The position numbers and the translations under genes are program-made. 47,540 nucleotides of DNA, from positions 1 to 47,540 of the forward strand of contig VGLJ01000037.1 of NCBI GenBank assembly GCA_016866775.1, written 5' to 3'. The notes under the pieces are model-generated. The model was not told the DNA's origin. It saw only the letters and a list, made by a program, of their open reading frames with translations, and did no database searches. Source of the DNA: Candidatus Rokuibacteriota bacterium. GTDB taxonomy: Bacteria; Methylomirabilota; Methylomirabilia; Rokubacteriales; CSP1-6. Of the stretch, positions 21,156 to 24,247 are shown in pieces. Within the stretch, counting starts at the first letter, position 1. The number at the start of each line of letters is the position of its first letter.

Positions 21156-21290
21156 GTGCCCGAGCCGAGCGTCAGCGTCGGTGTGGGTGTCGGCGTCCCG
21201 GTGTATCGCCGCGGGTACTACGGGCCCCGCTCCCGTCATCACCATCACGGGCGGTACTCCCGGTACCCCTCTCACTATTACGGCTGGTAG
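21156..21290 (+). CDS. Small Tyr/His/Gly-rich ORF, probably the tail of a lost envelope protein
   Basis: From a possible GTG the frame reads 44 codons: a VSVGVGVGVPVYRR segment, then a tract rich in Tyr, Arg and His (YYGPRSRHHHHGRYSRYP) and a YYGW end. The frame is open back to 21135 with no better start and no ribosome site. This composition is like the C-terminus of short exported Gly/Tyr-rich proteins, such as the one at 34854. The missing signal peptide suggests a truncated gene left between the amidase and ATP-grasp genes. It overlaps the 3' end of the latter by 13 bp. It may not be expressed. Confidence 0.35.
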   Translation: MPEPSVSVGVGVGVPVYRRGYYGPRSRHHHHGRYSRYPSHYYGW

Positions 21291-22258
21291 GAGGCGCGCG
21301 CCACGATGGAGTCGACGAAGGCGGGGAAGGGATCGAAGCCGAGCACGCGCGGCGCGTCGGCGACGAAGTTCGACGTCGCGTTGACGTCGTAGAAGTAGGT
21401 GAGACCGTCGCGCGCGCCCACCAGGTACTCCACCCCGCCGACGTCGATGCCGGCTTCGCGCGTGAGCTTGATCGCCGTGTCCACGGCTTCGCGCGGGGCG
21501 TCGAACCGCGTGACGCTCAGCCCGGGCTTCGCGTCCACCGGGCAGGCCGCCAGCGTGTCACCGGGAGCCGGCGACGGCACCTGGCAGATATCCGCCGGGC
21601 ACAGATTGAAGCCGGCCGCGGCCTCGCGAACGATCCGGATCGCGTAGAGCGCTCGCCCGTCGAGGACCTCCACGCGGACGATCGCGCCGTCCTTCGCCTC
21701 GACGTATTCCTGGACCAGGGCGGTACCGTCCGGCCCGAAGCTCAGCGTGTCGAGGCCGGCGCGAAGCGCGTCAGGGGAGTCGAAGCGCACGATGCCCGCG
21801 CCCGAGCCCCCGACGTTCGGCTTCACGACCAGCGGGAACGCGATGCGGTCGAGCACCTTCAGGATCTGTTCCGGGTGGTTCACGTCGATCGCGCGCGGAT
21901 ACCGCACGCCCAGGCGCTCGAAGAGCCCGAGCTGCAGCGCCTTGGACCTCTCGAATCGATAGGCGCCGACGCCGTTGATCACGGGCACGCCGAGCGCTTC
22001 GTAATGCGCGAGGACGGCCTCCGCGTAGAACAGCACGCTCCCGTGGCCGCGCGTGTGCGACGAGGGGCTCGTGCGATTCACCAGGACCGCGTAGTGTGGG
22101 TCGCGGTCATGCGGGTCGAAGGCGTGGTTCGAGTGGTCGATCTTCTCGTAGGGCAACCGCCGTGTCTCGAGCTCGGCGATGAGCCGCCGCGACCACTCCG
22201 GATGTTCGTCCAGGACCCCGATCGGACTTTTCAGCACGTTTGGCCGTAGGTTAGACAT
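21278..22258 (-). CDS. ATP-grasp ligase (RimK/GshB-like)
   Basis: A 326-residue protein starting at ATG 22258 (a TTG one codon upstream is less likely). The ATP-grasp core is clear: FPLVVKPNVGGSGAGIVRFD (lysine and glycine-rich loop), TALVQEYVEAKDGAIVRVEV (adenine-clamp acidic residues) and a metal site with GVEYLVGARDGLTYFYDVNA. The N-terminal domain (GVPVINGVGAYRFERSKALQ) is like RimK and glutathione synthetase, which join an amino acid or amine to a carboxylate with ATP. It is divergent from the SelW-like selenoprotein gene across a 40-bp AT-rich region, so regulation may be shared. The substrate is unknown. Confidence 0.85.
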   Translation of the reverse strand: MSNLRPNVLKSPIGVLDEHPEWSRRLIAELETRRLPYEKIDHSNHAFDPHDRDPHYAVLVNRTSPSSHTRGHGSVLFYAEAVLAHYEALGVPVINGVGAYRFERSKALQLGLFERLGVRYPRAIDVNHPEQILKVLDRIAFPLVVKPNVGGSGAGIVRFDSPDALRAGLDTLSFGPDGTALVQEYVEAKDGAIVRVEVLDGRALYAIRIVREAAAGFNLCPADICQVPSPAPGDTLAACPVDAKPGLSVTRFDAPREAVDTAIKLTREAGIDVGGVEYLVGARDGLTYFYDVNATSNFVADAPRVLGFDPFPAFVDSIVARASYQP

Positions 22259-22280
22259 CAATCCATAATTCCGATATGAT
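22252..22280 (+). promoter_or_regulatory. Sigma70-like promoter for the SelW-like gene
   Basis: TAGACA (22252-22257, five of six matches to TTGACA) is followed after 17 bp by TATGAT (22275-22280, five of six matches to TATAAT). It lies in an AT-rich patch that stands out from the surroundings. The first ATG (22290) is 10 bp past the -10, so the transcript may be leaderless or nearly so. The -35 overlaps the start codon of the divergent ATP-grasp gene. Confidence 0.6.
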
Positions 22281-22298
22281 TATGGTAGAATGGCGCCC

Positions 22299-22529
22299 AT
22301 GAACATCGAGATCAAGCGCTGCTTCTTCTGACTGGACATCCGCGGCGAGGCCGGCGGCCTCAGCAAGGAGATCACGCGCGAGCTGGGCGTGGCGCCGAAG
22401 ATCCGCATGGGCGGCCCGGGTCAGCTCGACGTGCTCGTCGACGGGCGGGTCGTGTTCTCGAAAAAATCGGCGAAGCGGATGCCTCAGCCGGGCGAGGTCG
22501 TGCGCCTGGTCAGGACGCCAGTGCCGTAG
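22299..22529 (+). CDS. SelW/Rdx-like selenoprotein with in-frame UGA (Sec)
   Basis: A 76-residue protein that is missed unless TGA at 22329-22331 is read as selenocysteine. It begins MNIEIKRCFFU, giving the C-x-x-U redox motif (Cys8, Sec11) at the end of the first beta strand, as in SelW/SelT/SelH (Rdx) proteins. The rest fits the family: an amphipathic helix (GLSKEITRELGV), a G-G-P-G turn, then LDVLVDGRVVFSKKSAKRMP and PGEVVRLV, matching the F-x-V-x-x-D-G-x-x-x-x-S-K-K and P-E-x-x-E-x-V pattern. An in-frame ATG at 22290 would add three residues. A hairpin follows the UGA at SECIS distance. It is a thioredoxin-fold redox protein of the cytoplasm. Its stop overlaps the convergent dehydrogenase gene by about 20 bp. 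Confidence 0.85.
22332..22368 (+). promoter_or_regulatory. Candidate bacterial SECIS hairpin of the SelW-like gene
   Basis: A 6-bp stem GAGGCC (22347-22352) / GGCCTC (22356-22361) closes a GGC loop. The apical loop begins 21 nt after the UGA, and its first base is G. These features agree with the known rule for bacterial SECIS elements (a hairpin just 3' of UGA with a short loop starting with G, 16-37 nt away). The lower stem is weak. Confidence 0.6.
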
Positions 22530-23586
22530 CCTTCTCGCGGCTGATGCCGACGGCCTCGGCCGCCTGAAGGATCTCCTCCCACGTCGTCGCGTCGACCTCG
22601 ATGCCCGACCGTCCGCGCTCCTGCCGCGCGCGGCGCTCCGGGTCACCCGGGACGAGGACCGGCGCGGAAGGATCGGCCGGCGGCGAGCCCTTGAGGTAGT
22701 CGACGAAGCCGTCGATCTCGCGGCGCAGCCAGTCGACACCCGCGAGGCGCGCGGGGTCGAGAGCCACGGCGAACATGTTGTTGATGGTGCCGCCCTTGCG
22801 CACGTTGCCGGGCTGGATCGTCGGCCCGCCCGACAGCGCACCGGCGAGGAGCTCGGTCACCACCGCGAGCGCGTACCCCTTGTGACCGCCGAACGTCTGC
22901 AGCGCGCCGCTCGGCTCCCGGTACATCACGTTGGGGTCGCGCGTGGGCTTGCCGTTCTCGTCGATCAGGATCCCTTCGGGCACGAGGTGGCCTTCGTTCT
23001 TCGCGACGCGGACCTTGCCCATCGCGATCGCGCTCGTCGCCATGTCGAGCAGCAGCGGCGGCTGCCGATCCGTTCCCGGGATCGCGATGCAGACCGGATT
23101 CGTGACGAAGCGCGCGTCGGTGCCGCGGAACGGCGCGACGAGCGCGCGGTGGTCCGTGACGTTGACGAAGTGCAGCGACACGAGCCCGGCCGCGGACGCC
23201 ATCTCGCCGTACGCGCCGACCCGGCCGATGTGCGCGGCGTTCGCGAGCGTCACCGCCACCACTCCTGTCTGACGGCACCGCGCGATCGCGGCCTCCATCG
23301 CTTCGCCCGCGACGCACCGGCCGTAGCCGCGCCCGCCGTCGAACATCAGCACGGCGCCGTCGTCCTTCACGACCTTCGCGCGCGTGTTCGGAATGACGAG
23401 ACCGGCCTTGAGCTGGCGGATGTACGAGGGGACCATCCCGACCCCGTGGCTGTCGTGCCCGGCGAGGTTCGCCTGGACGAGATGGTCGGCGACGAGATCG
23501 GCCTCGGCGGCGGCGCTGCCGCCCGCCTGGAGGATGGCGCTGGTCAGTTTTCGGAGCTGGTCGGCGGTCCGGGGGGTCGCTTGCAT
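22510..23586 (-). CDS. Ldh-family malate/lactate/ureidoglycolate-type dehydrogenase
   Basis: A 358-residue NAD(P)-dependent dehydrogenase of the LDH2/MDH2 (YlbC/AllD) family, distinct from classical lactate dehydrogenases. The N-terminal helix set (ADLVADHLVQANLAGHDSHG) carries the family's catalytic histidine region, followed by VPSYIRQLKAGLVIP, TLANAAHIGRVGAYGEMASA, NPVCIAIPGTDRQPPLLLDM and FGGHKGYALAVVTELLAGAL. The ATG at MQATPRTADQLRK is chosen; a longer frame upstream would cross the promoter of the divergent thioredoxin-like gene. It would oxidise a 2-hydroxy acid in the cytoplasm. The exact substrate cannot be told. Confidence 0.9.
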   Translation of the reverse strand: MQATPRTADQLRKLTSAILQAGGSAAAEADLVADHLVQANLAGHDSHGVGMVPSYIRQLKAGLVIPNTRAKVVKDDGAVLMFDGGRGYGRCVAGEAMEAAIARCRQTGVVAVTLANAAHIGRVGAYGEMASAAGLVSLHFVNVTDHRALVAPFRGTDARFVTNPVCIAIPGTDRQPPLLLDMATSAIAMGKVRVAKNEGHLVPEGILIDENGKPTRDPNVMYREPSGALQTFGGHKGYALAVVTELLAGALSGGPTIQPGNVRKGGTINNMFAVALDPARLAGVDWLRREIDGFVDYLKGSPPADPSAPVLVPGDPERRARQERGRSGIEVDATTWEEILQAAEAVGISREKATALAS

Positions 23587-23647
23587 GCCCGCCACACTAC
23601 CATTACAACAGGGGGGTCGGCGTACACCCCACGGAGGAGAAGAGCCC

Positions 23648-24247
23648 ATGGCCCAAGCGAAGATCCCAATGGACGCATCCCGTTTCACCACCGGTATGAG
23701 CTGGAAGGACTATATGGCCCAGATGGGCGACACGCGCGCCCGGACCGAGGAGAACTACCAGAAGTCCCAGCTCACCGAGGACGAGCGGAAGTTCTTCGGC
23801 GGCGTGAAGAGCGTCAAGTACGCCATCATGACCGTGGAGAACTGGTGCGGCGACGTCCATCGCAACTCGCCGCTGGTCGCTCACGTGGTCGAGGCGATCC
23901 CGGGCGCCGAGCTCCGGTGCTTCCTCCGCGACAAGGAGGCCGACCTTCGCGACGCACTCCTCAACAACGGCTACCAGTCGATCCCGGTCGCGGTCTTCTT
24001 CGACAAGGACTGGAACGAGCTGGGCCGGTGGGTCGAGCGCGCGCACGCCGCGACGGCCAAGGCCGCGCTCATCCGCGCCCAGACCGTCGATCTCGCGCCG
24101 AAGGACGACAAGGCCAAGCAGGATGCCGCGATGAACGACATGCGCGCCAAGGTCGCCGAGGCGTACAACGCGCCGGGCGGGCCGATGTGGCGGGCGGCCG
24201 CGGCCGAGCTGCGCCTCGTCATGGAGAACGCCGAGAAGCGGAAGTAA
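23648..24247 (+). CDS. Thioredoxin-family protein with WCGDV active-site loop
   Basis: A 199-residue protein with a GGAGGAG ribosome site before the ATG. An N-terminal helical region (MSWKDYMAQMGDTRARTEEN, which recalls a YbbN-type extension) leads into a thioredoxin fold: VKYAIMTVENWCGDVHRNSP, then LNNGYQSIPVAVFFDKDWNE with the conserved cis-proline and ERAHAATAKAALI. The active site has a single cysteine (W-C-G-D-V) instead of C-x-x-C, as in bacterial thioredoxins of the WCxDC/WCGDV group used in monothiol chemistry. No signal peptide is seen, so it is cytoplasmic. It is divergent from the dehydrogenase gene. The partner is unknown. Confidence 0.85.
   Translation: MAQAKIPMDASRFTTGMSWKDYMAQMGDTRARTEENYQKSQLTEDERKFFGGVKSVKYAIMTVENWCGDVHRNSPLVAHVVEAIPGAELRCFLRDKEADLRDALLNNGYQSIPVAVFFDKDWNELGRWVERAHAATAKAALIRAQTVDLAPKDDKAKQDAAMNDMRAKVAEAYNAPGGPMWRAAAAELRLVMENAEKRK

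Follow-up and report, generated by a model that had tools for sequence, protein, structure and literature searches.

An in-frame TGA at positions 22329-22331 of the window (the whole 47,540-nucleotide stretch of DNA analyzed here) raises the question of whether it ends a reading frame after 10 codons or is decoded as selenocysteine (Sec) within a small gene. Translated with TGA as U, the forward-strand frame at 22299-22529, closed by a TAG stop at 22527-22529, gives a 76-residue Rdx/SelW-like protein in which the TGA is codon 11 and completes a C8-x-x-U11 active-site motif (C8-F-F-U11; 22320-22331, forward strand). We estimate a probability of roughly 96% that this is a functional selenoprotein gene of the thioredoxin-fold Rdx (SelW/SelT/SelH) family, whose UGA at 22329-22331 is decoded as Sec by SelB and a hairpin. 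An earlier note on this DNA had given the TGA, the 76-residue read-through, the C-x-x-U at residues 8-11 and a D-G-x-x-x-x-S-K-K motif, and its coordinates and motifs agree with our translation, which contains D48-G-R-V-V-F-S-K-K. Two details are corrected here: 65 codons follow the TGA rather than 66, and the C-terminal end reads M-P-Q-P-G-E-V-V, where a final P-x-x-E-V-V had been described. Inspection by eye of the window for other CxxU or UxxC candidates gave none that was convincing.

The exact start of the protein admits a second reading. An alternative in-frame ATG three codons upstream (M-A-P-M...; 22290-22292, forward strand) would open the same selenoprotein with three additional residues and almost no leader, as it lies about 10 nt past a −10-like box, and no clear Shine-Dalgarno sequence is visible before 22299. 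Against this, the relatives align from the residue equivalent to 22299 and start there, some of them with a preceding GGAGG-like sequence, and we consider the upstream start unlikely, if well short of negligible. The sigma70-like promoter to which this box belongs, reported at 22252-22280 by the earlier note, is present on the forward strand as a TAGACA-N17-TATGAT pair with 10/12 matches to consensus; by itself it is no evidence of function, and promoter-like sites numbered 2 against 0.1 expected in shuffles.

Two features that might seem to favor a gene at 22299-22529 are common by chance in this DNA. A frame that stays open past the TGA had been taken as improbable by chance. Spurious long ORFs are in fact common in such GC-rich DNA: GC3 of the neighboring genes is 0.925, and 48 ORFs of at least 60 aa, mostly spurious, overlap the surrounding 9 kb and crowd both strands, and open-frame length was dropped as evidence. 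Likewise, some SECIS-like hairpin follows 432 of the 1111 TGAs in the window (39%), and such a hairpin was dropped as stand-alone evidence. Since an open frame and a generic hairpin are both this frequent, the case must rest on homology and conservation.

Homology to the Rdx family is found at the levels of profile, alignment and predicted fold. The Pfam Rdx profile (PF10262), a scan that had been suggested for the read-through translation, scores the window protein at 26.8 bits against a gathering cut-off of 22.6, and Rdx was the sole Pfam family match in 15/15 scanned members of the branch to which the gene belongs (see below). A sequence profile of the branch compared with the PDB matches the SelW-related chains 2ljk, 2fa8, 3dex and 2oka, and in 2fa8 the residue opposite the UGA column is the second Cys of CTQC. 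The AlphaFold model, built with 15 sequences, has a mean pLDDT of 87.5, with a strand at residues 3-8, a helix at 12-29 and the CxxU placed between these two elements; in structural comparison it matches SelW-related proteins best (Z 11.8-12.4), with lower scores for mouse SelW (7.8) and thioredoxins (6-6.8). By this model comparison the fold is the same as that of the Cys-form Rdx structures 2fa8 (Atu0228), 3dex, 2p0g and 2oka (Z ~12), which carry Cys for Sec at 17-29% identity, and the CxxU of the window protein is aligned with the CxxC of 2fa8. Both marks of Rdx membership, the CxxU motif after the first strand in the translation and the thioredoxin-like Rdx fold in the model, are present. 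The gene is thus identified computationally as a SelW/Rdx-like selenoprotein gene, as the earlier note had proposed, by an Rdx profile match, a fold that superposes on solved SelW-like structures, and a conserved UGA and hairpin.

Conservation of the UGA codon could be followed in 20 relatives of the same branch, comprising 16 found first at 40-60% identity and four more (L051, L052, L085 and L086) from Acidobacteriota or from genomes drawn from the window's phylum. All 20 carry TGA at the Sec codon, each time followed by conserved protein, and none of them has Cys there. A Cys opposite the UGA, looked for as support for Sec, was found only among distant CxxC Rdx proteins (YCTQC); as the branch itself is without a Cys form, the Cys/Sec pairing rests on these distant relatives. 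Between close relatives the computed dN/dS after the UGA is ~0.1-0.33, and purifying selection acts on these codons.

The hairpin that follows the UGA, GAGGC-CGGCG-GCCTC at 22347-22361 (forward strand), was judged by the published constraints on bacterial SECIS elements and by its conservation across the branch. It fits the published model, which requires an N-G-[G/U] loop (PMC13188914), with a 5-bp stem and a CGGCG loop beginning 20 nt downstream of the UGA. Folding of the 45 nt that follow the UGA gives −18.3 kcal/mol, and of the 5-bp hairpin alone −6.5. Stem and N-G-[G/U] loop recur at a fixed place in 20/21 branch genes, a count over related and hence not independent sequences, and in L085 the stem at that place is broken. 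When synonymous codons are drawn at random, the hairpin survives in 5.4 ± 2.0 of the 21 genes, with a maximum of 13 in 2000 trials; stem positions pair in 98% of cases versus 38-54% for slid partners, again over related sequences, and the outer pair is exchanged from G-C to C-G in three sequences. For the window gene alone, 34% of synonymous versions retain the hairpin, which is not significant, and only the family test is telling. This exact type of hairpin occurs at 2 of the 1111 window TGAs, the other one (23103) being without protein-like context. The hairpin noted earlier at SECIS distance is therefore present and conserved at a fixed place, but is weak evidence alone. The conserved UGA, the fixed hairpin and the Rdx match are the part of the evidence that chance does not supply, and thus it is conservation that decides the case.

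The genome also encodes the means to insert Sec. Computational searches of this assembly (5.13 Mb, 97.5% complete) found all of selA, selB, selC (tRNA-Sec) and selD, as had been proposed as a check. tRNA-Sec (70 bits; called SeC by ARAGORN) lies in one cluster on contig 43 with selB and a SelA-like ORF, the latter assigned from its sequence and its place beside selB. The selD gene is found on contig 31:24695-25639 (L054) and carries a UGA of its own, reading SCAGUASK; it is probably a selenoprotein gene too. The gene occurs in 17 genomes of the phylum, and in 16 of these SelB scores above cut-off. Rdx homologs align across the UGA and the genome has both SelB and tRNA-Sec, the points on which the earlier note had staked its reading.

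Retention of UGA as a sense codon in the relatives could also be explained if it were read as Trp or Cys, through an altered genetic code or simple near-cognate read-through, with Sec playing no part. A changed code is disfavored by several branch genes that end in UGA as well; UGA is thus not simply reassigned, and its place together with the hairpin separates the two uses. Neighboring genes, moreover, read normally in table 11, the conservation of the SECIS-like hairpin speaks against read-through of a non-Sec kind, and distant family members have Cys at this position; together these points leave this explanation very improbable. A pseudogene, in which an ordinary stop killed an Rdx gene after 10 codons, has almost no probability left and is refuted in practice by the shared UGA and the conserved protein after it in 20 relatives, by the purifying selection on that protein and by the Sec machinery of the genome. 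Codon 11 is very probably read as selenocysteine, and we strongly infer Sec insertion at U11.

Decoding would proceed by the binding of SelB with Sec-tRNA-Sec to the hairpin at 22347-22361, so that the UGA at 22329-22331 is translated as selenocysteine and a C8-x-x-U11 active site results between the first strand and the first helix. If the chemistry is like that of SelW, the U11 selenolate would attack an oxidized thiol or a peroxide, Cys8 would resolve the adduct via a selenenylsulfide, and a cellular thiol would then reduce the selenenylsulfide again. The product most likely acts as a small redox protein with thiol/selenol chemistry, with its role, substrate and reductant suggested by the family.

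Within the Rdx selenoproteins, the window gene falls into a well-supported branch that is separate from the classic YCxxUNY clade. A maximum-likelihood tree with 49 rows divides the 21 branch genes from 28 classic/CxxC rows with 100/99 support; the protein is short and the alignment columns few, which makes details inside the tree unsure. Bacterial SelW-like proteins (PF10262; Zhang et al. 2005, PMC1088965; termed SELENOW-like in PMC13188914) share with the branch an Rdx domain of about 75 residues, a CxxU that follows the first strand and precedes the first helix, and a SECIS shortly after the UGA. Unlike them, the branch carries K/R-R-C-x-x-U, mostly followed by x-D, in place of the classic Y-C-x-x-U-N-Y-x-P-x-A, and no Cys member was seen. 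The same genome also holds a classic Rdx selenoprotein gene (CAEU-N-Y) on contig 136:3314-3526 (L001, L020). The branch is represented in the window's own family, in a second family of the same order and in Acidobacteriota; at the cut-off applied, 395 Gemmatimonadota genomes and ~290 genomes from phyla other than that of the window yielded classic types alone, and no viral copies of the branch gene were found. The window protein scores 23.6 bits with TIGR02174 (SelT/SelW/SelH) against a cut-off of 34.2, and 37.8 bits with NF041051 against a cut-off of 88; the other branch members tested also fall below the NCBI SelW cut-offs, and such genes may therefore go unannotated. The window gene is a new representative of an established family, and it adds a recognizable branch to the SelW-like selenoproteins.

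Some members of this branch have two in-frame TGAs and UxxU instead of CxxU (L032:1522-1533, L034:1135-1146, L036:1519-1530 and L037:1522-1533). The first three are in one genus and L037, a long branch, is in another family, so that the UxxU genes stand at two places on the tree and the change either arose twice or was lost between. Its occurrence in four separate assemblies makes sequencing error unlikely. In these genes the distance to the hairpin loop is 29 nt counted from the first UGA and 20 nt counted from the second. Either value falls within the published range of 16-37, and one hairpin could thus serve both UGAs. A small hairpin, GGCGA-N3-TCGCC, is also seen in L032, L034 and L036, where it takes up the 13 nt that immediately follow the second TGA, with differing loops; it may be associated with the first UGA or have arisen by chance. 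UxxU forms of SELENOW have been described from amphioxus and the alga Ostreococcus lucimarinus (PMC7539508), while bacterial SelW-like proteins are given as CxxU only in reviews from 2022 and 2026 (PMC9312934, PMC13188914), the latter describing them with one Sec. The change in L032, L034, L036 and L037, though not in the window gene, is the same as in these eukaryotes, with both active-site residues being Sec; the eukaryotic SECIS is in the 3′-UTR, whereas the hairpin of the UxxU relatives is in the coding region. It is likely that this is a distinct, apparently Sec-only bacterial Rdx branch, in some members of which one hairpin would decode two UGAs 9 nt apart to give UxxU and a possible diselenide. 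Such members bear on whether one bacterial SECIS serves two nearby UGAs, and offer a natural comparison of CxxU with UxxU in near relatives for the contribution of the second Sec.

The surroundings of the gene give no help on its function because they vary between genera: flanking ORFs differ, and no conserved operon was found across genera. After the gene lies what we take to be an SsuA/NMT1-like substrate-binding ORF in L028 and L030; in L024 the ORF after it presumably encodes a luciferase-like monooxygenase, and in L032 the gene is preceded by an ORF that we take to be ketopantoate-reductase-like. In the window, a RimK-like ATP-grasp ORF (21278-22261, reverse strand, its exact start approximate; PF08443, 38 bits) diverges from the selenoprotein gene. 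An ORF of the Ldh_2 family (malate/L-lactate dehydrogenase; 22510-23691, reverse strand; PF02615, 362 bits) converges on it, with its 3′ end (22510) inside the selenoprotein gene and an overlap of 20 bases; a terminator-like site on the reverse strand (22486-22471) also falls within the selenoprotein gene. A Thioredoxin_9 ORF (PF14595, 90.9 bits) is located at 23384-24247, ~0.9 kb downstream.
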